Positions 3,531 to 19,716 of a stretch of DNA of 45,928 bases are shown here, piece after piece. The DNA is from a virus: IMG/VR virus record IMGVR_UViG_3300034094_000013, positions 1 to 45,928 of that record; one strand, written 5' to 3'. The position numbers and the translations under genes are program-made. Within the stretch, counting starts at the first letter, position 1; every line of letters begins with the position of its first letter. The notes below the pieces were generated by a model, which saw nothing but the letters and a program-made list of their open reading frames with translations, ran no database searches and had not been told where the DNA came from.

Positions 3531-3890
3531 TTACTTATTCGGTGCCTCGCAAAAGCCGGATCGCAAGGTGCCCTCGTTGAGATGCGGCCACACCTCAAGC
3601 GAGTGGATCGCCGCCATGACGTTCCATGCGCTGTGCCCCAAGTGGTCTTCAGATCGGTCGCCTGACAGGAACATGTAGAGGTGCCGGATGGCATGATTAA
3701 TCATGTCATTAGCAGGCATTCCCTTCTCCCAGTTGTAGTCGCCGTAGCGTGCGGCACCCTCAGCGCACGCAGCCGCCACCGCCGCCAGTCCAATCGGACT
3801 GATGAGGTCGTACCTCGTGGCCTCCGCATCGCTCGACCGAACGGCGCCACTGGCGTACTTCACAGACGAATCCTCAGTTACCTTAATCAC
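3531..3890 (-). CDS. dATP/dGTP diphosphohydrolase-like protein (MazZ/DUF5664 type)
   Basis: 119 residues from a GTG at 3890, chosen because GGAG lies 7 bases upstream and it overlaps the HD-hydrolase gene by only 8 bases; a start at 3965 would overlap by over 80. Diagnostic features are RYDLISPIGLAAVA (about 26-39), EGAARYGDYNWEKG (44-57) and NHAIRHLYMFLSGD (65-78), followed by EDHLGHSAWN. This pattern matches phage dATP/dGTP diphosphohydrolases (former DUF5664), all-alpha enzymes that hydrolyse dNTPs to dNMPs and supply or purge purine nucleotides. E44, H66, H70, D78, D82 and H83 are plausible metal or active-site residues. MazZ of 2-aminoadenine phages belongs to this type, but the domain also occurs in phages without that pathway. 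No PurZ is seen in the window. Confidence 0.75.
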   Translation of the reverse strand: MIKVTEDSSVKYASGAVRSSDAEATRYDLISPIGLAAVAAACAEGAARYGDYNWEKGMPANDMINHAIRHLYMFLSGDRSEDHLGHSAWNVMAAIHSLEVWPHLNEGTLRSGFCEAPNK

Positions 3891-4410
3891 ACCATATCTC
3901 CATGAACCTTGCCTCAAACAACTGCTTGGATTGCTGCCAGCAGTACGGCAGGATCGGGCCACCAATAGGCTCCGCGTCGATTCCCCAATCGTGATCGACC
4001 GTGAGCAACTCTCTCTTCTCCGCCATCAAGGCACGCTTGTCTGCGTCCTTTACTTCCTTCGGTATCGGCCAACACAACCCGTACTTGCGGGCTATGGTTC
4101 GCTGGATGTGTTCCTCTAGGTCGCGATACGCCGGAAGCATCTGCTTGAGCGGCGTTGCCACGTCACCGAGATACGCTTCGCTTGCGTCATGCAGCAATCC
4201 CCACACCGCATGTTCCTGCGGCACTATCTTGCTGACCATCACACTGTGCTGTGCCACACTGTACGGGCATTTGCTGTGGCCGGTGAAGCGGTTGATGATC
4301 GACAGTGCGTGAGCAATGTCTGGCATCCGCACGTCTTCCTCACAGAAGTCCGACAGGTCAATGACTCGTCCGGTGAATGTTTGCATCATCGTCTCGCTCA
4401 ATGTCCTCAT
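3883..4410 (-). CDS. HD-domain nucleotide phosphohydrolase (YfbR/DatZ-like)
   Basis: 175 residues from ATG 4410 with GGAG 9 bases upstream. The HD signature is visible: H55 in YSVAQHS, H74-D75 in WGLLHDASEAYLGD, and a distal Asp around 122-124 in KEVKDADKRAL. DIAHAL (31-36) and RFTGH (41-45) precede it, as in phage HD hydrolases related to YfbR 5'-deoxynucleotidase and to DatZ, a dATP triphosphohydrolase of about the same length. The expected reaction is metal-dependent dephosphorylation of a deoxynucleotide. It overlaps the next gene, a dATP/dGTP diphosphohydrolase-like protein, by 8 bases, so the two are almost certainly made together and act on the purine dNTP pool. The substrate cannot be set from sequence alone. 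Confidence 0.82.
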   Translation of the reverse strand: MRTLSETMMQTFTGRVIDLSDFCEEDVRMPDIAHALSIINRFTGHSKCPYSVAQHSVMVSKIVPQEHAVWGLLHDASEAYLGDVATPLKQMLPAYRDLEEHIQRTIARKYGLCWPIPKEVKDADKRALMAEKRELLTVDHDWGIDAEPIGGPILPYCWQQSKQLFEARFMEIWCD

Positions 4411-8557: not shown

Positions 8558-9226
8558 TCAGGTCGCCACCGCTGGCTCCTTCTTGGATTCCGTTTCCTTC
8601 TCGTCCAGCGCGGAGGCTAGGTCACGCAAGGCGTCAAGCGACTTCTCGCTCAACATCCCCTCGCTCACTCCCTTCCGGGCACGAACGATTTCCGCATCGC
8701 GAGCCTTCTTCGATGTGGCCGCACGAATCTTGGCAATGAGTGCCGAGACGATTCGCGGCTCATCGCTCACAGTGGCCGCAGCGTGAGACGCATTGGCCTG
8801 TGCCCCGTCGTCGTCGTTGTCAGCGGCAATGCCCAAGATGGCACAGAAGGCCACGCGCTTGAGATACGTCGCCGTTGACGCCAACGACTGCGGAGGCACG
8901 TTGCCCTTCATGGGCAAGTACGACCGCTGGAACTGGCCGGACTTGTGGCCCAGCGTGGTGACGAGCATCATCGTGCCGTCCTCGCCGTAGGGCATGAACG
9001 ACTGCGTGACCGACAGCCCGTTGGCTGACAGCGCAGCCCGTGCGGTGTCGATCACCGTCGCAAGATCGGCGTAGTCGGGGATGGGATTCCCCTGCCGGTC
9101 CTTCTTGGCGAAGTGCGAGACACAGGTGCGGGGAGCGTTCCTCAACTGACCAATCGCCACAGCGTGTGCTGCGAACAGTTGGTCGAGATGCTCCGACGCT
9201 TCGATCCAGATTGATTGAGACTTCAC
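8558..9226 (-). CDS. ERF-family single-strand annealing protein
   Basis: 222 residues from GTG 9226, chosen for GGAG six bases upstream and GTGA overlap with the preceding stop. The conserved ERF core is visible: DYADLATVIDTARAALSANG (51-70), MMLVTTLGHKSGQ (86-98), then SLASTATYLKRVAFCAILGI (114-133) and the acidic AADNDDDG. ERF proteins anneal complementary single strands during phage recombination and genome circularisation, in the manner of RecT or Red beta. The C-terminal third is charged and variable, as is usual in this family. The adjacent RecE-like nuclease supplies single strands, so the pair forms a two-component recombination system. An early role in replication is likely. Confidence 0.88.
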   Translation of the reverse strand: MKSQSIWIEASEHLDQLFAAHAVAIGQLRNAPRTCVSHFAKKDRQGNPIPDYADLATVIDTARAALSANGLSVTQSFMPYGEDGTMMLVTTLGHKSGQFQRSYLPMKGNVPPQSLASTATYLKRVAFCAILGIAADNDDDGAQANASHAAATVSDEPRIVSALIAKIRAATSKKARDAEIVRARKGVSEGMLSEKSLDALRDLASALDEKETESKKEPAVAT

Positions 9227-10203
9227 GACATACTCCTCAGGGCATGTGCCGGAAACTGGAGTTCAACAACCTCGCCATGCTGGTCCGGCAGCCACCAGTC
9301 GAGGTCTTCGCGCAAACGAATGTCAGCAAGAGCCTTGTCCATGAGACGCTGCCCCTCTGCGATAACTGCCTCTGGCAGCACCACTACTTGGCAGTCGTGA
9401 GGCAGGCTCGTGGAAATGACGATGAAGCGAAGCGGTGTCGGCGTTAGGCCGCACGCCTCCATGCCTCGCATGTACCAAGCGCACTGGAGGTGGTACTTGA
9501 ACTGGAGACACGAGCGCCACCACTCCACGAGGATGTCGGCGTCTCTTGTGGTCTTGAGGTCGATCCAGCAGTGCGGCGTGATGGCGTCAGCACGGCACTT
9601 GAGGTTGTGCCCGTCCGCATTCGTCCAGCGGATGCTCACCTCATGGGCGGTGATCTCGGCTATGAGTTCAGCAGCCGCCGGGTTGCTCTTGATGGACGCA
9701 ACCTCTGCGAAAATCTGCGCCCGCTCCTTCGGCCCCACAACTGTCGAGCCAGCGGGAGCCTCGTTTTTGGCCCACTTCTCAGCCTCTTTGCCTACCTGTC
9801 CGGTCGCAGTTAGCGTTGAGGCAGGTGGAGAGACGAGCGTTTCAAGGAAGGCGTCGCCCTCCTCCAGCCATCGGTGAACAAGTGTCCCGTGATCTAGGGC
9901 ACTGCTCTGGTATGGCGGGAGGGTCTTGGCGACGTGACGCTGGTAGTACAGGGCAGGCGAGTCAAGGAGCGTTTTGACCCGGCTGCAAGACCTGTGAGTT
10001 TCGTCCGCGTGATAGTCGGCATTGCTCTCCCCATGCCGGATGTCGGCGTCTACATGCTGCTTGTACTGCCCTAAATCTAGGGGCGCACAAGCAGCATGTA
10101 GCGTCCCAGACTGCACGTCGAAAGCGTCGGGGCTCAGGACAGGGGGGTTGCCCGCTGTATGGGTGGCGATACTTTCTGCGGCGGCCGAGAGGAGTGTAGC
10201 CAT
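9223..10203 (-). CDS. RecE-like PD-(D/E)XK exonuclease
   Basis: 326 residues. The RecE/Cas4-type nuclease core is recognisable: DHGTLVHRWLE with H110, LKCRADAI with D206, WIDLKTTRDAD with D215-L-K217, and YHLQCAWYMRG carrying the QxxxY motif (Q240, Y244). These enzymes degrade one strand of a DNA end to feed an annealing protein, here the ERF gene that follows with GTGA overlap. The first 65 residues are poorly conserved in look, and their DNA holds a 52-bp quasi-palindrome. The ATG at 10203 has only a weak AGG upstream and shares bases with the ATG of the divergent recombinase gene. A GTG around codon 30 is possible, but no start exists further in before the conserved core. Confidence 0.85.
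   Translation of the reverse strand: MATLLSAAAESIATHTAGNPPVLSPDAFDVQSGTLHAACAPLDLGQYKQHVDADIRHGESNADYHADETHRSCSRVKTLLDSPALYYQRHVAKTLPPYQSSALDHGTLVHRWLEEGDAFLETLVSPPASTLTATGQVGKEAEKWAKNEAPAGSTVVGPKERAQIFAEVASIKSNPAAAELIAEITAHEVSIRWTNADGHNLKCRADAITPHCWIDLKTTRDADILVEWWRSCLQFKYHLQCAWYMRGMEACGLTPTPLRFIVISTSLPHDCQVVVLPEAVIAEGQRLMDKALADIRLREDLDWWLPDQHGEVVELQFPAHALRSMS
10050..10101. repeat. 52-bp quasi-palindrome: perfect 15-bp inverted repeat around a partly symmetric 22-bp centre
   Basis: Arms 10050-10064 (CTACATGCTGCTTGT) and 10087-10101 (ACAAGCAGCATGTAG) are exact reverse complements. The 22-base centre is itself partly symmetric (CCCTA-AATC-TAGGG near the axis), so 22 of 26 half-site positions match. 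It ends 100 bases before the start codon of the plus-strand tyrosine recombinase and lies inside the 5' part of the RecE-like gene. It may be a recombination core or arm site, an operator for the divergent gene pair, or a telomere-type site. No U-run follows on either strand, which argues against a terminator. Confidence 0.85.
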
Positions 10204-11023
10204 GATGACGTTACCTGAGTTAGTGACTTTGTACCTGAGTGAGCGTTCCGTTAGCAGGCTCTACGAGAGGAACATGACCCGACTCGCACGCAACGTGGGA
10301 GTGCTGACTGTGCAAGATTGCAACCGCTATCTAAAGGAGCGGCTGACAAAGGTTGCCTCCGTGACCGTCTTGTACGAGCGAACCATGCTCCTCGTCCTGT
10401 GGCGTTGGGCACTGGACTCTGACCTAGTGGACTTACCCCCGAAAGGACTTGTCAAGATCAAATCCAGTCGGCCACCTACTAGGGCGTGGACTTTAGACCA
10501 GTGCTGTACGGCTGTCAAGGCCAGTTTCGCCCTCGATTCCGAGATGATGAAAAGCGGATGCCCGCTTGGGCTTTTCATTCGGTGCTGGCTATTGCTGGGC
10601 TACGAAAGCGGTGCGAGGCGTGGCGACCTGTGGCGAATGAAGGCGTCGGACTTCAGCGGCGACACGCTGTGGTGGACGCAGCACAAGACCGGAAACCCGT
10701 GCCCGAAAATCCTATCGGAGGAGTGCGTGGCTGCTGTCAGAGACATGCTGTCACGCTCGCCGAATGGAACGGTCCTTTCGTGGGCAACTTGCGTCAGCGG
10801 CGGGGGCAAGCAGATGCGGAAGTTCTTGATTCGCGAGAAGCTCGGAGGCTCATCGAAGTGGCTCAGGCGGTCTTCCGCCACTCATATAGAGATGGAGAGT
10901 CCGGGCAAGGGTCGGATTCATCTGGGCCACAAGACGATTGGGCTGGCCGAGAAAGCCTACATCGACTGGACTCAGGTCAGGCGAGACATCCCCCAAGCCC
11001 CTCGCCTACTCAAACAGGGATAG
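10202..11023 (+). CDS. Tyrosine recombinase/integrase, the only plus-strand gene
   Basis: 273 residues from ATG 10202 (GGAG seven bases upstream; an immediately following ATG is an alternative). The catalytic set is present: R139 in ESGARRGDL, K162 in TQHKTG, K219-W-L-R222 in place of the usual H-x-x-R, H243 in HLGHKT and the nucleophile Y253 in KAYID. The N-terminal 90 residues match a core-binding helical domain. Lysine at the first box-II position occurs in some family members, so activity is plausible. It would mediate site-specific strand exchange for integration, excision or dimer resolution. Its start codon overlaps that of the divergent RecE-like gene and its end overlaps the convergent internal-virion gene by 18 bases. 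A promoter must lie in the RecE-like coding region. Confidence 0.87.
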   Translation: MMTLPELVTLYLSERSVSRLYERNMTRLARNVGVLTVQDCNRYLKERLTKVASVTVLYERTMLLVLWRWALDSDLVDLPPKGLVKIKSSRPPTRAWTLDQCCTAVKASFALDSEMMKSGCPLGLFIRCWLLLGYESGARRGDLWRMKASDFSGDTLWWTQHKTGNPCPKILSEECVAAVRDMLSRSPNGTVLSWATCVSGGGKQMRKFLIREKLGGSSKWLRRSSATHIEMESPGKGRIHLGHKTIGLAEKAYIDWTQVRRDIPQAPRLLKQG

Positions 11024-14000
11024 CGACCCAGTATCGCTCGACTTCTTCTTGCTCTTGCTGGCCTTCTTCGGCTTCCGTAACTCGCGGCGTTCTCGACCCA
11101 GTGCCCGAGATACGGCAAGCCGTCGAAGCGCCCACTGCGGCACTCGTGGCTGCATCGCTTCGGGAATGTAAACCTGCTTGAACTCGCGAGTGAATGGGTC
11201 GATGCTGCTTTCGATCTCGCGGGTGGCGTCGGACAGGATGTCCTCCTGCGCAACGGTTCTGCGCTTGACGCCAGACAGGGCGTTGACCGCCGTCGTCAGC
11301 ACCCGATCCGATAGCGGGCGATCACCTCTGGTGTCGAGCAGCGAGCGTGCAGCGTAGAGCGGTCGCCCAACGAACGGCAAGATCTCTACACCCTTGTCGA
11401 TGACGGTGGGCACGTCCGCATTGGGGTTGCCTGAGACTGACCGCAGGATGGCATCGAGCGAGGATGTGGCCTCACCCGCCGGACGATTCGTAAACAGGTC
11501 TTTGTTCGCCGCGACTTCGATGCCAGTTCGAAGTGCCGGGTGCAATTGCATAGCAATCTGCCGTGCCGTGCCAGCCGCCGTCCCGGCAATCGTGCCCGGC
11601 GTCTCGATCATGTTCAGTTGGTCGAAGCCCGGAAAGTCGAGGTCTGTAAGGTACGCTTGCGTGCCCGGAGATGGCTTGCCACCAAACTCCTCAGGGATGG
11701 CAAACGCAAACTGCGACCGCAGGCCGGAAGGAATGTAGGTGTCGTCGCCTTCGTTCTGAACTGCTTCTGTTCCCTTAATGAGTTGGCCGTAGCGACCACC
11801 CGGCTGCTCCACCAACTGCCGCAGCACCTCGCGGAAAATCCGGGACTGGAATGAGTACCATGGGAATAGACGCTTGAGTACAGTCTTTTCAAATCCAGTC
11901 AGCGAGGAGTAGTCCACGTGCGCCCGCTTCATGGCGCGAGCCGCCGCCTGCGGATCGTACCCCTGACGAAGCAGTTCGATGTACCCCGACAGACGGTTGA
12001 TGCCGTCCGTCAAGTTGTTCATTTGCTCGCCCGCCCGCAGGATCGGATTCCTCGTGTCGTTGAGCGGCTTGAGTTGCGAGCGCCACGTAAAGAAGTCGTT
12101 GCCAAACTGCTGCCATGACCGGCCCTGCTGCGGCATCAGTTCGCCCACAATCGTCCCGGCAGTGATCGGTGTGGAGCCGGGAAGGTTGGACAGCGCCCCC
12201 TTCCCGATCATGCTCGCACCGGCCTCGTTGAGTTGCGTTGGCCCGATCAGTCCGCTCTGCGACAGGTCAGCGTAGAACTGCGCCAGCCCGTCGTTGCCAG
12301 CGTATCGCGGAATGGATCGCAGTGTCTTTTGAAACGTCTCGCTCTGCGGACCCTCTTGCATGAGTGCCCTTGCGGCACGCACGCCAGTGGTGGACAACGC
12401 ACCCTCCAGCCAGTTGCTCATCGCACCGCTGTACATGTCACGCACGGCACGGGCAGGCCACGTCAGGATCGAACCCTTCCATGCCTGAGTGAGGTGGTCG
12501 AGTTGGTTGAGCAACGCCTGCGAAGCCTCGCCAGTCTCAAACGCATCCCGTGCTCGCATGAGGCGGTTGATGTGTTCCTCTGGGATGCTGATCTCAGCGA
12601 GTTTGACCTTGTCGGCGTCACCGCCAAAGATCGACGCGATCCTCTCTCGCATCTGCTGCGACGCACCAATCTCCTCGCCAACATCTCCGTAGGTCTTTAG
12701 GCCAAGACGATTGATGGCTTCCTGCATCGAGATGTGCCGCCCGCCTCCGACCTCGCCAAACGGCTGGTCTTTCGCCATCGTGGCAAGCGAGTCATACAGA
12801 GTCTTGGCAGTCGCCATCGACTCGTTGCGGCCCCGCATGTATCCGCCGATCATCTCGGTTGGATGCTGTCCGAACAACGGGGACTTCTGGAGTACGTCAT
12901 CGGGCAGCGTGTTGAGGACGCGAGCAATGTTGCGGGCCTGCTTGAACTCGATGGGCGGCTGGCCCGGAGCAAGTTTGGCGTTGAGCTGCTGCACGATGTA
13001 GTTCGCAGCCTCGTCGTCGTTGTCGGCGGTACGCTTGGCCCCTGCTACAAACGAGTCACGAGACAGGTCGATGATCGTGTCTCGACCACCGGGCACCTGC
13101 ATTGCCTCCGTGCGACCAATCATGTCGCCGGTCATCAGGTTGAGAGCGTCACCAACCTTGCGGTTACGCTTGCCCTCCATGTCAAGGATGGCCTCTGCCT
13201 GTCGCGGTAGGTAGTCGATGCCGTAGGTGTCGTGCAGTTCGTTGGCGATGAGGCCAGCGTTGCGAGACTCTTGTAGGTAGTCCTGCCGGTTGTTGATCCA
13301 CCAGTCCGCATATTCTTTGAGTGCAGGGCGGGAGTTGACATACGCCTCGTCGGCGGAGGTCATCACGCTTGGGCGGCCCTCTTGTGCCGCACCCCAACCT
13401 TCAAGGTAGCGGCCTAGCGCACGGTTGCCTTCCTCACCTTCAAACACTTCCGGGTGCTGCGAAGCAATCTTGGCTAGGTGGTAGGTGTGGGTGCCGGTGG
13501 CAATGCCACCCGTGCGTTCGCGAGCCTTGTAGTTTGCAATGTTGGTGATCTGCGACTCGGCGTCGAGTGCCCCGTCCGTCCCCTTGCTGAACATCGCGGC
13601 GGTGGTGCGACCAATCGGACTCCATCGCAAGGCAGAGCCAAGCGTGTCCAGCGTGTCGGCGTACTTGTCGCCAAACCCCTTACCCAAGAAGTCGCCCACG
13701 ATTGTTGGGTCTTGGAACGGAAGGCCCACGCCAAAGGACTTGGACAAGCCCTTCTCTCCACGCAACCGCTGGAAGTCAGCGGGATCCATCACGCCCTTCA
13801 ATGCACGCTCCGTCGCCGCCGGATCGTCTGCGTAACGAATCAAATCATCAAGAGATACTTCGCGGGCAGCGGTTCGAGGGCCGTAGAGCGGGCGGCCTGT
13901 GGTTGCAGGATCAAACGTCGTGATGTTCCGCCCGGTGCTTTCCAGTGCTGCCTTGTTCCGCTGGGCGACAGTGGGCAGCAGGTCATCCGCCATGCCGGTG

Positions 14001-14455
14001 TCGATGGCTTTACGGGTGGCAGCGGTGGCGGCGTCGTCAAATACGCCAGCCTTCTTTGCCGCCTGACCCATTGGCGTCAGGGATTTGGCGGCACCTGACA
14101 GGAACGAAGTCGGCCCAGTAAGGATGTCAGTTCCTAGACCGGCGACGAAGTTGCCCCAGTTGTCTTCTTGCCCGATCAGTCCGGCGTTACGCAGCAGTTC
14201 GCGTCCAGTGACCCGCTCGCCAGCACGTCCAGAGATGGCACCGCGAAACAAGTCGTCCGGCAGGGCGAGGGCGTCACCGATGCGTGACAGCGTACCGCCC
14301 GTCAGTTCGCCAACGCTCTGGAGTACGGAGTCGCGCTCCTCTGGCGTGACGGCATCGAGGCCGACCGGTTCGTCTGCAAGGGTAGCGTCGTCGAACAGGG
14401 GGAGGTAGCCGCCTGCTCGCTTCTTGGCACGACGGTCTTGCTCAAAAAGATCCAT
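11006..14455 (-). CDS. Large internal-virion/ejection-type protein, 1149 aa
   Basis: From ATG 14455, coupled to the preceding stop (TGATG). It is a long, mostly helical, hydrophilic protein with Gly/Ala-rich segments and no signal peptide. Around residues 670-690 is WKGSILTWPARAVRDMYSG, and around 875-905 are VDYSSLTGFEKTVLKRLFPW and SFQSRIFREVLRQLVEQPGG. Such segments are common in very large phage proteins that travel inside the capsid and enter the host with the DNA. The C-terminus is highly basic (KPKKASKSKKKSS). With the two large genes before it, this gives the three-protein set typical of podovirus cores. The assignment rests on size, composition and position. Confidence 0.68.
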   Translation of the reverse strand: MDLFEQDRRAKKRAGGYLPLFDDATLADEPVGLDAVTPEERDSVLQSVGELTGGTLSRIGDALALPDDLFRGAISGRAGERVTGRELLRNAGLIGQEDNWGNFVAGLGTDILTGPTSFLSGAAKSLTPMGQAAKKAGVFDDAATAATRKAIDTGMADDLLPTVAQRNKAALESTGRNITTFDPATTGRPLYGPRTAAREVSLDDLIRYADDPAATERALKGVMDPADFQRLRGEKGLSKSFGVGLPFQDPTIVGDFLGKGFGDKYADTLDTLGSALRWSPIGRTTAAMFSKGTDGALDAESQITNIANYKARERTGGIATGTHTYHLAKIASQHPEVFEGEEGNRALGRYLEGWGAAQEGRPSVMTSADEAYVNSRPALKEYADWWINNRQDYLQESRNAGLIANELHDTYGIDYLPRQAEAILDMEGKRNRKVGDALNLMTGDMIGRTEAMQVPGGRDTIIDLSRDSFVAGAKRTADNDDEAANYIVQQLNAKLAPGQPPIEFKQARNIARVLNTLPDDVLQKSPLFGQHPTEMIGGYMRGRNESMATAKTLYDSLATMAKDQPFGEVGGGRHISMQEAINRLGLKTYGDVGEEIGASQQMRERIASIFGGDADKVKLAEISIPEEHINRLMRARDAFETGEASQALLNQLDHLTQAWKGSILTWPARAVRDMYSGAMSNWLEGALSTTGVRAARALMQEGPQSETFQKTLRSIPRYAGNDGLAQFYADLSQSGLIGPTQLNEAGASMIGKGALSNLPGSTPITAGTIVGELMPQQGRSWQQFGNDFFTWRSQLKPLNDTRNPILRAGEQMNNLTDGINRLSGYIELLRQGYDPQAAARAMKRAHVDYSSLTGFEKTVLKRLFPWYSFQSRIFREVLRQLVEQPGGRYGQLIKGTEAVQNEGDDTYIPSGLRSQFAFAIPEEFGGKPSPGTQAYLTDLDFPGFDQLNMIETPGTIAGTAAGTARQIAMQLHPALRTGIEVAANKDLFTNRPAGEATSSLDAILRSVSGNPNADVPTVIDKGVEILPFVGRPLYAARSLLDTRGDRPLSDRVLTTAVNALSGVKRRTVAQEDILSDATREIESSIDPFTREFKQVYIPEAMQPRVPQWALRRLAVSRALGRERRELRKPKKASKSKKKSSDTGSLSLFE

Positions 14456-16347
14456 CAGTAACCTGTCAGGCCACGAATGAACCCACGACCACCGCTTACC
14501 GCGTTTGCTGCGGCTTGCTTCGCACCCGCTGCCACGTCCTTACCAACCTGCTCTGCCGTCTTTGGGGGGGTGGCATTGTTGAACATGTATAGAGCCTCGT
14601 CCGGCGTCTTGGCTGCACCAATGGACATGACGAACTGGGTGAAGGCGTCCCGATTCTTGGATGCACGCAGCATCCCAATGCGATGCTTCACGAAGGGGTC
14701 ATCTAAGCCGTTCACGCCAGCAAGATGGCTGGCAATAATGTTCTGGGTCTGCTCTGCAACCTGATCCGGAGTGAGAGCCTTGTTCATGCCGCCAACGATT
14801 CTCTCGACAGCAGAGTAACGCTGGTATGAGTCAGGGGTGGTGAGTGCGTTCGCCAACTGCTTGCGGGCTTCTTCGCCAACCAGCGTCTCTTCGTCGTCTG
14901 GCTGCTTCTGTGCCATCGCAGCCCGTGCTTCCTCTTCCGCCACCGCCACGTCTCCAGCCTCCTGCGCCTGTACGCCAGCCAGTTGGCGTAGTTGCAGTGC
15001 GGCATTCGGGTTGCCGTAGATGTCGTTGACCGTAGCCATCTGCAACGGGTTGTTGCTGGCGACTGCCTCCATCAGAGAACGAACACCCATGCCGGGTGCG
15101 TAGTTGGGGTTGCGCAGGTCTTGCGACAGGTTGTAGTTCTGGGCACGGTTGCGAGCCGCCTGAGCACTGTTGCCTTCACGCACCCGCCGCAGCATCTGAC
15201 CAAGACGAACCATCTCCGACTTGCCTTCGGGGGTGGACGAGGCGGCGTCAATAGCAGACAGCATGTCGTCCGCCGACTGGCCGTTGACTTCGCCCTGCAA
15301 TCCTTGAAACCGCCTGCGGAGCGTACCGGCGAGCCGGTTGCGATCCTGCTGCGCCAGCCGACTCTTAAACTCGTCGCTCGGGGTGTACCGGTATGCACCG
15401 CCACCCATAGCGACCGGGTTGTAGTTGGCGGCACGCTGGTCGTGACGCTCCTTCTCACGCATCACGTCACCGCGAAGCATGTCGAGATCGTCTCCGTACT
15501 TGACGGCGTCTATGCCATACGCCTGCGCGAGGGCAGCGATGTGCGAGTCGGAGAACTCGCCCTGATCCTGTGCAATGGCAGCAGCCTGTGCCATCATGTC
15601 GGGATTGGGCGCACGAGACGACAACGCACCGCCGGGATTGTGCGTGAACGTCCCGCCGAATCGCGTCATCGGGATGTCAGGGTTGTGAACATTCCGGCTC
15701 ATCGTTCGCAGTTGCTCGGCGGAATACTGCTTTGCCTCTCGTCCCTCTGGGAGTGGAAGCCCAGCAGCGCGGCGACCTTGTGCCAGTTCGCTATTCTCGC
15801 CAACGGGCAGGTACGGATCTTTGCCGATGTTGATACGCGGGGTAGAGGAGGAGGATTCCCGCATCTGCGAGGCACGATCAGCAGGCGGCAGGTCGCCAAA
15901 GTTCTCCGACAGCCAGTCGTCGTAAGACATGGTGTTAGAGTGTCCGCCCGAATCGAACTTCCGCTGGAGTGCCGTCTGCTCAGTGGGGCTAAGTTGCCGC
16001 AGGGTGTCACGAGTGGTGACCTGCTCCTCGCCGGGAAGGGTTCCAGATTCGGCGGCAGGCAGGCGAGACTGCACCGCCGCGTTCTGGAGGTTCCGCTGGT
16101 GATAGGTCTGTAGGTTCTGACGGGCGTCAGTGTTGGGTGCCGGGTCATTCCCCCTGCGGGCTACGTCGCGGGCAGCGGACTCGACAGCGGGCGGCACGGC
16201 AGGCTGCTCTACATCGACAGACATGGGCGTTGGAGGCACAGACACGTCGTTGCGTTCCTCAAGGAACGTGCCCATCTGCTGCCGACGAGTGGCAAGTTCC
16301 CGCATGGCATCGCGAACACGCTGTGACTGGTCTGCGGCAATCGCCAT
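14455..16347 (-). CDS. Internal-virion candidate, 630 aa, Gln/Ala-rich
   Basis: From ATG 16347 with GGAG about seven bases upstream; the previous stop is three bases away. The protein is rich in Ala, Gln, Asn and Arg, with coiled-coil-like helices (VRDAMRELATRRQQMGTFLE) and an acidic patch (AVAEEEARAAMAQKQPDDEE). The end is glycine-rich (ANAVSGGRGFIRGLTGY). No enzyme motif is seen. It lies between two even larger proteins of similar composition and is coupled to the next one. An injected core protein is the most likely role; a structural role elsewhere in the particle cannot be excluded. Confidence 0.62.
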   Translation of the reverse strand: MAIAADQSQRVRDAMRELATRRQQMGTFLEERNDVSVPPTPMSVDVEQPAVPPAVESAARDVARRGNDPAPNTDARQNLQTYHQRNLQNAAVQSRLPAAESGTLPGEEQVTTRDTLRQLSPTEQTALQRKFDSGGHSNTMSYDDWLSENFGDLPPADRASQMRESSSSTPRINIGKDPYLPVGENSELAQGRRAAGLPLPEGREAKQYSAEQLRTMSRNVHNPDIPMTRFGGTFTHNPGGALSSRAPNPDMMAQAAAIAQDQGEFSDSHIAALAQAYGIDAVKYGDDLDMLRGDVMREKERHDQRAANYNPVAMGGGAYRYTPSDEFKSRLAQQDRNRLAGTLRRRFQGLQGEVNGQSADDMLSAIDAASSTPEGKSEMVRLGQMLRRVREGNSAQAARNRAQNYNLSQDLRNPNYAPGMGVRSLMEAVASNNPLQMATVNDIYGNPNAALQLRQLAGVQAQEAGDVAVAEEEARAAMAQKQPDDEETLVGEEARKQLANALTTPDSYQRYSAVERIVGGMNKALTPDQVAEQTQNIIASHLAGVNGLDDPFVKHRIGMLRASKNRDAFTQFVMSIGAAKTPDEALYMFNNATPPKTAEQVGKDVAAGAKQAAANAVSGGRGFIRGLTGY

Positions 16348-16350
16348 TTG

Positions 16351-19300
16351 CTATCTCCACCCGTTGTAGTTCTGAAGCGTCTGGAATGTCGGCGTCTTGT
16401 TTGTGGTTGCCCGTCCACGAATGCGGTCGAGTGCCCTGTTGATGCGAGCTTCTTCTGCGGCTCGTGCGTCTTCGTCCATGAGCGTGGAGCCGTCAGTGCC
16501 AGCACCAACCGGAATGGGGTAGAAGTCGCCACTACCTCCGCCAGTGCCGCCGCCGTCACCTACACCACCACCTCCGGCTGGAGGAGTGCCACCGCCGCCG
16601 CCACCCATGTTGCCGACGATGGCCCCGCCGACAGTGATGCCGCCTACGATTGCGGGCCACTTGAGCGTATTCCACGTTCGACGTAGAAGCCCAGCAGGTT
16701 CCGCCGTTATGGTCGTGCTGCTGCTGAACTTGCTCTGCGGAGAAGTCTTAGACTCGTCAGAATCGGGAGGCTTCGGGGCGTCAATCTGATCCTCGTCAGC
16801 CAGCCGTACTGGATCGGCTCCAGTGACAGGCTCAATCGGATCGGCCTTCGGGGCGTCGGGTGCAGGAGTTGCGGCGTCTGGCGTAGTCTTAGGTGCAGGC
16901 GCAGGCCCAGTGACCGGATCAATGGCAGCGGCCCCGCTCTTGCGGTTCTTCATCTCGGCGTCTACGTGGGCCTTGCGAGCCTGACGCCCAAGCGTGTCGG
17001 CGTCTTCCGGCTCATAGCCATCATCCAGAGCCTGACGGCGAGCCTCTCGCTCGATCACGTCGGCTTCCGACTGAATCTCTTCGACCGACTTCATCTTGCC
17101 CGTGACGGGCTGGATGGGCGACGAGCCATCGGTGGCCGGTGCCGTCTTCTTGCCCTTGCGCTTCGGCCTTCCGCCGATTTCGGTGGCGGAGGACTCCAGA
17201 TTGTCGATGGTTGGGCTGGACGCAGCGTCATCGAGGACAACAGTTGCGTCCGGCTCGTCGGGATCTGGGATGAAATCAGCGGTGTTCTTAGCCTGTTTCT
17301 TGGCGGCAGTGACATCCTTCGGGTCGATCTTGGCAGCACCGGCAAACTTGCGGTCGATCACCTGTGCGATGCGAGCCTTTGCAAGATCGTAGTTCTCCGT
17401 ACCGGGCTTGAACAACGTGCCACGAGAAAGCATTTCTTCAGCGACAGCGTCGGCGTTGGCAAACAAGGGAGTGCCGTCCGCATTGGTCATGCCGAACGGA
17501 TTGGTGTCGCCAAACATAAGTTGGGCCGCACCCTCGACCCGGCTGGCCTGCTGCTGACCGCCGAGACGACCCGGCTTCATGCTGCCATTGGCTTCAAGGT
17601 CGAGTCCACTGGCGGAGACATCCCAGTCTGGGTCGAAGTCGCCGTCGAGCAGTTCGTCGGCATCGTCACCGAAGATGCGCTTTGCTTCCGTGTTCATCCC
17701 AGCGGCGTCGTCTGCCGACAGGCCAGTGTTTGCACGGTTGAGCGACTCCTGCGGCTTGGGCCGGAAGCCCGTCATCGCAAGGATGGCGTCGTCATACGTC
17801 TGCTGCTGCCCGCCCTTGTTGAGACGCGAGTCGCTCATAGCCCTTCGGCCACGCTCAATCACCCAGCCCTTTGGCGGCTTGTCCATGCCAGCAGGCAGAG
17901 CCTTAGCCTCGCCCGTCCGCTGGCTCACAAGTCGCGGCGGGTACGCCTTGTCCATTGCAGCATAGGCAGCAGCCAAGCGATTCTTTGCGGCGGCAAGGGC
18001 GGCGGGGCCGGTTGCAGTCTTTGCCTCCGCAAGAGCGGCATTGACTTCGCCCTCCAACTCCTGCGCTTTGTCAATGGCACGCAAGTCGTTCGATTCAATG
18101 GAACGCTCGCCGCGATTCCGAGACTCCAGCGGCGGATTGCGGTCACGCCCACGCAAGAACAGCGGCAGGTCACGCTGCGTGTCGGTGTCATCAAGGCCCA
18201 TCGCTTCCATGCGGGCCTGCTCTGGCATCCCGCCGCCAGCGGCTCGGGCCTCAACTGCGGTCTGTGCTTCCTTGCGTGCCGCCGTCGCAATGTCGAAGGC
18301 GGTGGGCATCTCGGCGTCGGGAACATCCTCTGCCGCAAACTCTGGCGAGCGGGCACCCGGAGTGACGGCAGCGGGCTGCGGCTGCGGCACTGCGGCCCGT
18401 AGCATCCGAGCCTTCTCGGCACTGACCATCTCGTCCTGCCCCAGCAAAGCGTTGCGGAGGGCGGAGGACGCAGCCTGCCTTTCATAGATAGCGCGGACGG
18501 CGTCAGTAATCTGATCCTGCGGTGCTGCCCCCTGCCCAGACAGGAGGTCGTTCAGCGTGGCAACAGTCTCCGCATCACCAGCAGCGGCTGCGGCATCTCG
18601 CTGGGCAATCAGTTCATCAAACTCGTTGATGGGTCGAGTCCGGGCGGCAACTAGATTAGGGACAAACGACGGCGTCTGCTGGTTTGGGTCCAGCATCTCA
18701 GACAAGAATCGCCGGGTGTCCACAGGCAATCCCGCCAGCACAGCCTGCCGCTGGTCGTCGTCAAGTTTGTTGAACGCATCCGTCAGGGCATTCCAGTCGC
18801 CAGCCGGAAGCGTCTCGCCAACCAACTCCTTTGCGGCCCGGAAGTCGCCAGACGTGGCAGTGCGGTTGCCCGCTGGTGGTCGCGGAGTGTTTGCCACGCC
18901 CCTCGCCTGCGCAGCCGTATCAATCTGTTCCGCAGCCCGGTCGGCATTGCTAACGCCCGCCATTTCCTCCAGCCGCGCCAGACGCTCCGCACCCGCTTCG
19001 GCGTTGGGGAACTTGGCGAGGAAGTCGGGCGAGTAGCCTTCGGCAGTGCGGAGCTTCTGTGCCTCACGCAACAGTCGCTTAAGGGACTGCTGGCTTGTGC
19101 TCTCTAGGTCGGTCGGGGTGGTGGACTGCCAGATGGCATCAGCCAACTCTTTGGCGGCGTCAACCTTCTTGGCGTTGGGCGTCAGGTTGGCCTTGCCGCC
19201 CTTGCGCGGGGCACCATCGTCACCCAAGTTGGTAGCAGACGCATCGAGGTTGTCGATCTTGGTGTCGCCGACAACTTCCGTCAGGTCATCGACGGCAGTC

Positions 19301-19716
19301 TTGCCAAGCACGTTGCCGTCAACATCCACGACAGTGCCGTCCGGGTAGACGAACCGCTCATCGTCCAGACGACGCACGATCACGCTTGGATCGGCTTCGC
19401 TGACGAGTTGCTTACCCACTTGAGAGAACGGACGCATGGCACCAGCGTCTGCAACAGTGGCTAATACAGGGGCGGCGTCAGGCGTGGACGTGGCATCCAT
19501 CGCACCCGGCGTCCGCTGAAGCCGCAGGACGGTGGTCTGATCCAGTTGCTCGCCACGTTGCAGCGCACGCATGGCAGCGGCCACCTCATCCGGCGACATT
19601 GGGCCGATACGCTGTGCCGCAGCCGCCACCAGTGCCTTGAGTCGGCTGGCCGGAACCGCAGCGGCACCTTTGCCAGCAGCCTGTGCTGCGCTGCTGAGTT
19701 GACTACCGATGCCCAT
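16351..19716 (-). CDS. Very large Ala-rich virion protein with duplicated IDNL motif and three I-x-PVTG motifs, 1121 aa
   Basis: From ATG 19716, overlapping the previous stop as TAATG. It is low in complexity, helical and acidic. Two related segments, at about residues 153-175 (KIDNLDASATNLGDDG) and 836-858 (TIDNLESSATEIGG), each followed by a basic run, show an internal repeat. IQPVTG, IDPVTG and IEPVTG occur at about 868, 932 and 961 in a Pro/Ala-rich linker. Near the C-terminus WPAIVGGITVGGAIVGNMGG (1020-1038) is a likely membrane-insertion segment, followed by a glycine-rich spacer. The N-terminus MGIG resembles that of the 370-aa protein at 44300-45412. The probable role is an ejected protein that can cross the host membrane. 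Confidence 0.66.
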   Translation of the reverse strand: MGIGSQLSSAAQAAGKGAAAVPASRLKALVAAAAQRIGPMSPDEVAAAMRALQRGEQLDQTTVLRLQRTPGAMDATSTPDAAPVLATVADAGAMRPFSQVGKQLVSEADPSVIVRRLDDERFVYPDGTVVDVDGNVLGKTAVDDLTEVVGDTKIDNLDASATNLGDDGAPRKGGKANLTPNAKKVDAAKELADAIWQSTTPTDLESTSQQSLKRLLREAQKLRTAEGYSPDFLAKFPNAEAGAERLARLEEMAGVSNADRAAEQIDTAAQARGVANTPRPPAGNRTATSGDFRAAKELVGETLPAGDWNALTDAFNKLDDDQRQAVLAGLPVDTRRFLSEMLDPNQQTPSFVPNLVAARTRPINEFDELIAQRDAAAAAGDAETVATLNDLLSGQGAAPQDQITDAVRAIYERQAASSALRNALLGQDEMVSAEKARMLRAAVPQPQPAAVTPGARSPEFAAEDVPDAEMPTAFDIATAARKEAQTAVEARAAGGGMPEQARMEAMGLDDTDTQRDLPLFLRGRDRNPPLESRNRGERSIESNDLRAIDKAQELEGEVNAALAEAKTATGPAALAAAKNRLAAAYAAMDKAYPPRLVSQRTGEAKALPAGMDKPPKGWVIERGRRAMSDSRLNKGGQQQTYDDAILAMTGFRPKPQESLNRANTGLSADDAAGMNTEAKRIFGDDADELLDGDFDPDWDVSASGLDLEANGSMKPGRLGGQQQASRVEGAAQLMFGDTNPFGMTNADGTPLFANADAVAEEMLSRGTLFKPGTENYDLAKARIAQVIDRKFAGAAKIDPKDVTAAKKQAKNTADFIPDPDEPDATVVLDDAASSPTIDNLESSATEIGGRPKRKGKKTAPATDGSSPIQPVTGKMKSVEEIQSEADVIEREARRQALDDGYEPEDADTLGRQARKAHVDAEMKNRKSGAAAIDPVTGPAPAPKTTPDAATPAPDAPKADPIEPVTGADPVRLADEDQIDAPKPPDSDESKTSPQSKFSSSTTITAEPAGLLRRTWNTLKWPAIVGGITVGGAIVGNMGGGGGGTPPAGGGGVGDGGGTGGGSGDFYPIPVGAGTDGSTLMDEDARAAEEARINRALDRIRGRATTNKTPTFQTLQNYNGWR

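Follow-up and report, generated by a model that had tools for sequence, protein, structure and literature searches.

We analysed the IMG/VR virus record IMGVR_UViG_3300034094_000013 over its whole length of 45,928 bp (hereafter the window), focusing on a 52-bp quasi-palindrome at positions 10050-10101 and on the genes that adjoin it. The plus-strand gene at 10202-11023 (ATG at 10202 or 10205, with GAGGAG before it) encodes a tyrosine integrase of about 272 aa. On the minus strand, a RecE-like PD-(D/E)XK exonuclease (phrog_412, DUF3799) is encoded at 9223-10203 with its ATG at 10203, and is directly followed by a gene for an Erf-like single-strand annealing protein (8558-9226, minus strand). 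The integrase and RecE genes stand head to head, and their starts overlap by two bases. The palindrome lies within the 5′ coding part of RecE and ends 100 bp upstream of the integrase ATG at 10202. We consider it probable that the armless tyrosine integrase next to the palindrome uses it as its phage attachment site (attP), that this site is placed in frame in the RecE coding sequence, and that integration separates the RecE start from the catalytic domain.

The RecE-like protein matched phrog_412 with an E-value of 1e-53. Its residues 1-60 form a poorly conserved N-terminal part, and the conserved nuclease domain begins at about residue 60. The integrase matched the phrog_1 integrase (E 2.6e-15) in an alignment that starts at phrog_1 position 165. 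The catalytic residues R138, K161, R221, H242, and Y252 were invariant in 12 relatives of the integrase, and K218 replaces the first histidine of the HxxR motif (K218-x-x-R221). An AlphaFold model of the protein (mean pLDDT 78, with the C-terminal 30 residues poorly modelled) retrieved lambda Int 75-356, Tn1549 Int, XerA, XerH, Cre, and Brujita Int in Foldseek searches. Judging from this model, the protein is a tyrosine recombinase with core-binding and catalytic domains that lacks an arm-binding domain.

The palindrome reads CTACATGCTGCTTGT-22 bp-ACAAGCAGCATGTAG, with 22 of its 26 half-positions complementary. Symmetry of at least 22/26 occurs at this place only in the 45,928-bp record, and at no place in 60 first-order Markov copies of the window, the best of which reached 19. 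The palindrome is thus real and not a product of chance. One of the 60 copies contained perfect 15-bp arms (spacer 0-60 bp); hence, the expectation of about 0.002 given in an earlier note on this DNA is better put near 0.02, which is still rare. The coordinates, sequence, and symmetry given in that note were exact on recheck, as were the 100-bp distance to the recombinase gene and the location in the 5′ coding part of RecE. A second contig with an identical RecE (L007) carries the same palindrome, which argues against an assembly error.

Comparison of the window with 27 related IMG/VR phages (28 sequences in total) provided insights into the structure of the site. The palindrome consists of two core-like sites in inverted orientation, which we read as an attP array. 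Core-like site 2 (10045-10071) has half-sites GGCGTCTACA and TGTACTGCCC around the spacer TGCTGCT at 10055-10061 (plus strand; AGCAGCA in the RecE sense), and core-like site 1 (10080-10106) has half-sites GGGGCGCACA and TGTAGCGTCC around the spacer AGCAGCA at 10090-10096 (plus strand; TGCTGCT in the RecE sense). The two 7-bp spacers are separated by 28 bp (10062-10089), and the half-sites around each are inverted, in the form TACA...TGTA. The array, which covers RecE residues 35-51, reads in the RecE sense GGACGCTACA TGCTGCT TGTGCGCCCC TAGATTTA GGGCAGTACA AGCAGCA TGTAGACGCC. Its layout, A (7 bp) B ... B′ (7 bp) A′, is shared by the window and nine more phages. When spacings of 20-40 bp were scanned at every position of the 28 sequences, 28 bp was the best in nine of the ten array phages, the window included (L036 had 25 bp), and phages without the array gave scattered best spacings; as these phages are related, the recurrent 28 bp represents conservation and not nine independent events. 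Half-sites A and A′ matched better within a phage than between phages (8.1/10 against 7.1/10), as did B and B′ (7.2/10 against 6.3/10); the letters thus vary from phage to phage, but each keeps its mirror symmetry.

The two spacers, compared as inverted repeats, are mostly unlike in the relatives and are perfect complements in the window, which accounts for its perfect 15-bp arms. These arms are private to the window phage; in the relatives, the half-sites are still symmetric but the spacers are not complementary. Hence, relatives that keep the recombinase, the comparison by which the earlier note proposed that its idea could be refuted, do lack the exact palindrome, yet the array that underlies it is not absent from them. 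Other phages displayed a single core, such as L042 with GGTGCGCACA CGCACCA TGTGCGCACC, whose 10-bp arms form a perfect inverted repeat on either side of 7 bp. In L030, which with the window forms a pair of closest relatives, the array looks inverted, the left core of the window resembling the reverse complement of the left core of L030, as though recombination had turned the site around.

Members of a sister clade displayed a different sequence at the same place of the RecE frame. Nine phages (L026, L081, L104, L184, L185, L186, L187, L188, and L192; L025 and L081 are one contig) carry the stretch CCCCCAGA TTGTGAT TCTAGGGGTCGCGGGTTCGAGTCCCGTTAGCCACCC or a near copy, which corresponds to a tRNA-His(GTG) from the anticodon stem to the 3′ end, with TTGTGAT as the anticodon loop. 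This tRNA half lies inside the RecE frame, in which it would be translated as the peptide QIVILGVAGSSPVSHP. Among the eight of these phages with full flanks (L026 being additional), pairwise identity was 93% over the 50 bp of the tRNA part, 36% just upstream of it, and 61% in the 44 bp that lead up to the catalytic domain. When 84,980 GTDB species genomes were scanned for the tRNA-His sequence, 18 stretches were returned, 17 of them intact tRNA-His genes, and the titles of all 18 name planctomycetes (some Kuenenia or Planctomicrobium). The core of the sister clade is identical to these host genes, and its site has the classic anatomy of an attP, in which integration would occur at the anticodon loop and restore the tRNA. 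The tRNA half thereby tells both what this place does and which phylum hosts the sister clade, and supports the integration core that was among the options of the earlier note. By kinship, the window phage probably also infects a planctomycete, and its array would be the sequence at which its own integrase crosses over. None of the viral contigs carried an intact tRNA-His together with a phage. On the planctomycete contig L123, a loose tRNA-His 3′ half (4318-4358, minus strand) lies about 1.7 kb from an intact tRNA-His, with identity starting exactly from TTGTGAT; it has the look of a scar left by another element that used this crossover.

Every phage compared keeps the RecE frame open across the site. 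Between the start near the integrase gene and the catalytic domain, the frame contained no stop in 1679 codons (28/28 phages), and the other two frames of the same strand contained 54 and 55 stops over this stretch. The RecE starts lie close to the integrase start across the 28 phages. Since the frame is free of stops, RecE is probably translated through the attachment site. Many relatives (e.g., L184, L186, and L036) also have, a few tens of bp past the RecE start, a short inverted repeat of the form GGGG...CCCC, and many carry a recurrent GGCACSGTTGGTC motif in the N-terminal stretch of RecE; both lie upstream of the attP core.

The distribution of the array links it to the integrase. Mapped on the integrase tree, the two-core label required three changes, a value not reached in any of 500 shuffles, and on the RecE tree it required seven changes (105/500 shuffles as low). 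Likewise, phages with tRNA-type sites formed one group of integrases. The type of array thus follows the integrase and not RecE, and the array is therefore part of the integrase module. Such a pattern would result if integrase and site were exchanged together as a cassette against the catalytic part of RecE, the break falling within the RecE frame.

An integrated relative displayed the structure expected from the free phages. The planctomycete genome G025, from a family carrying the matching tRNA-His, contains a phage fragment (L235) with a RecE (38% identity to that of the window), an adjoining Erf gene as in the window, and a phage replication initiation gene, located directly downstream of an intact tRNA-Met. 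G025 and two sister genomes are 86-87% identical in DNA over 1.6 kb, up to the 3′ end of this tRNA-Met; beyond it, the sister genomes carry other DNA. The T-stem of the G025 tRNA reads GGCGG/CCGCC, as opposed to GCCGG/CCGGC in all ten sister loci read; hence, the phage most likely brought the 3′ half of this tRNA along. In L235, the RecE frame stays open backward through the tRNA half (HKPGVGGSSPPAA, with the T-arm read just as it is in the tRNA-His phages), and the first ATG, GTG, or TTG comes only at residue 170 (of 309), within the nuclease domain. As far as the sequence tells, integration decapitated this RecE, matching the prediction from the free phages: none of these 28 has the frame interrupted at the site, and it is broken in the prophage, which is a relative and not the window phage itself. 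A second RecE match (L234) was rejected as an integrated form, as it is not adjacent to a tRNA.

Based on these findings, we propose the following course of events. In the free phage, the start and presumably a promoter lie on the integrase side of attP, and leftward reading from there would cover RecE and Erf. Upon integration, the RecE start, its first 35-50 codons or so, and everything upstream would stay with the integrase gene at one end of the prophage, and the catalytic part would go to the other end, behind host DNA. RecE would be off in the prophage, and excision would rejoin the two halves and restore the gene, so that it is on in the free genome. The split of RecE may thus act as a switch between lysis and lysogeny. 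We give an even chance to the broader proposal that a group of planctomycete phages keeps attP in the RecE frame so that integration turns the RecE/Erf module off and excision turns it on, the tRNA half or double-core array being a recombination site and a protein-coding sequence at once. The earlier note had offered the integration site as one option, and it did not include the frame conserved in 28 phages, the two-core array, or the splitting of RecE.

Several observations weigh against the attP interpretation. The exact palindrome is not conserved among relatives of the RecE clade, which taken alone would speak against the finding, although the stretch between the two genes in these relatives shows it to be real all the same. 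In the window considered by itself, the four-half-site score did not differ significantly from codon shuffles (p ~0.2). The case rests on the relatives, which are not independent of each other; the phages compared are mutually related, and their kinship inflates the apparent repetition. Neither a bacterial attachment site (attB) for the AGCAGCA spacer of the window nor an integrated copy of the window lineage was found. The 14-mer ACAAGSAGCATGTR occurred in 17 of 197 planctomycete genomes, scattered like the control, and a search for an attB with the core AGSAGCA gave no enriched match. T33 is a feature of the tRNA anticodon loop, and a tRNA anticodon-loop attB for the window core was rejected, as AGCAGCA lacks T33 on either strand. 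Meanwhile, L235 is a single case, with 38% RecE identity and cut by a contig end; its attR is absent from the G025 assembly, in which no integrase of this family was found. A start codon outside the set of ATG, GTG, and TTG, or a host promoter, could also still express the RecE of the prophage.

Some of these observations would suit other explanations. The site could be an operator, bound by a repressor or by an autoregulating integrase, that controls the divergent integrase/RecE pair and plays no role in recombination. A palindrome 100 bp upstream of the integrase gene, inverted half-sites of a size typical of dimer sites, and an exact spacer complementarity private to the window phage are consistent with this. 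We nevertheless regard an operator as unlikely, given that the same position in the sister clade holds half of a host tRNA, that the array type follows the integrase tree, that four half-sites around 7-bp spacers suit a recombinase better, and that the RecE start lies on the far side of the site. Also unlikely is that the tRNA-less clade has ceased to integrate and uses the site for dimer resolution or inversion, its integrase being retained as a Cre/Xer-like resolvase of a plasmid-like prophage. The missing attB, the lack of a prophage of the window clade in the more than 800 planctomycete genomes searched, and the identical inverted spacers of the two window cores would agree with such a role. 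On the other hand, the genes scanned included none that could be recognised as serving partition or plasmid replication, the spacers of the two cores are unlike in most relatives and would not recombine with each other, and metagenome-assembled genomes are often devoid of prophages. Both options had been raised in the earlier note, and both, conceivable as they are, explain less than an attP does.

That the palindrome arose by chance or as a by-product of coding is very improbable. The absence of the exact perfect arms in relatives and the codon-shuffle result, which concerns the window and the half-sites only, would be expected under this explanation; set against them are the 22/26 symmetry, seen in none of the 60 randomised windows, and the 28-bp spacing that recurs in nine phages. 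The telomere-type option of the earlier note, in which the palindrome is the hairpin substrate of a protelomerase, was rejected and retains almost no credibility: the palindrome does adjoin a tyrosine recombinase, but this 272-aa protein matches only core-binding and catalytic domains of the lambda Int type, and the palindrome lies inside an open frame and not at an end.

The sites of Cre/Xer recombinases and armless integrases are small, with inverted half-sites around a short spacer, and the window site is alike. The integrase itself resembles the armless integrases (such as Brujita Int, PDB 5vfz) and Cre/Xer in having core-binding and catalytic domains only. It is nevertheless too distant from them for membership by sequence: its best PDB profile match had an E-value of 3e-4, Brujita Int was absent from the profile search of PDB sequences, and the kinship with Brujita Int is a match of fold only (Foldseek E 8e-6, 17% identity). 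The attP of the window clade also differs from these sites in comprising two core-like sites 28 bp apart. Short sites suffice for armless integrases, and this is what allows an attP to lie within a gene at little cost; the same argument has been made for mycobacteriophages (PMC9262239). As in the anticodon-loop integration of temperate phages into tRNA genes, the attP of the L081/L184 type is a tRNA-His half and L235 restores a tRNA-Met, with the difference that the tRNA half would also be translated in RecE.

The closest parallel is the integration-dependent immunity of mycobacteriophages, in which attP lies inside the repressor gene (Broussard et al. 2013, reviewed in PMC9262239). In both cases attP lies in a phage open reading frame, tRNA integration restructures that gene, and there are no arm-type sites (PMC9262239). 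Meanwhile, the gene split here is a RecE-like exonuclease, a nuclease of lytic recombination and not a repressor, and it would lose its 5′ and not its 3′ end, with inactivation instead of gain as the expected effect. It is also divergent from the integrase gene and not co-transcribed with it, and the integrase ends in ...PRLLKQG, without an LAA-type end and thus without an ssrA-like tag. The window system works like integration-dependent immunity, yet it is not a member of it. We found no description of an attP inside a recE-type gene in the literature searched, which was itself limited.

The integrase and RecE each recovered dozens of IMG/VR contigs, and the head-to-head layout is retained in the RecE clade. 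No relatives of the region or the integrase were found among INPHARED phages and PLSDB, and a pattern scan of genome contigs gave no relative of the integrase; in the planctomycete genomes, only distant relatives of the integrase were present (best E 2e-48). The integrase also occurs in other types of phages without an adjoining RecE (L050, L051, L052, L058, L060, and others; 44-54% identity), some of which carry inverted repeats of their own upstream of the integrase gene. We rejected L050-L052 and L058 as integrated forms, as these records lack RecE and belong to other phage types.

Elsewhere in the window, a dATP/dGTP diphosphohydrolase-type gene (3531-3965, minus strand; PF18909, E 6e-18) adjoins a YfbR-like HD 5′-deoxynucleotidase gene (3883-4410, minus strand; PF12917, E 1e-6). 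This pair resembles two genes of the pathway for 2-aminoadenine (Z) genomes (MazZ and DatZ); PurZ was not found among the open reading frames of the window that were scanned. Three large minus-strand genes (11006-14455, 14455-16347, and 16351-19716) encode proteins of 1149, 630, and 1121 aa without a PHROG match, the first of which had no Pfam match either.

If our interpretation is correct, these phages hold a counterpart of opposite sign to integration-dependent immunity, in which a phage gene is controlled by the phage's own integration. It would mean that the place of attP can be a lytic gene rather than a repressor, and would provide a simple readout of the state of the phage at the level of DNA. 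These findings also point to the planctomycetes, a phylum with little-studied phages, as the hosts of a large uncultivated group of viruses, and armless integrases with such short sites could serve as genetic tools in planctomycetes.
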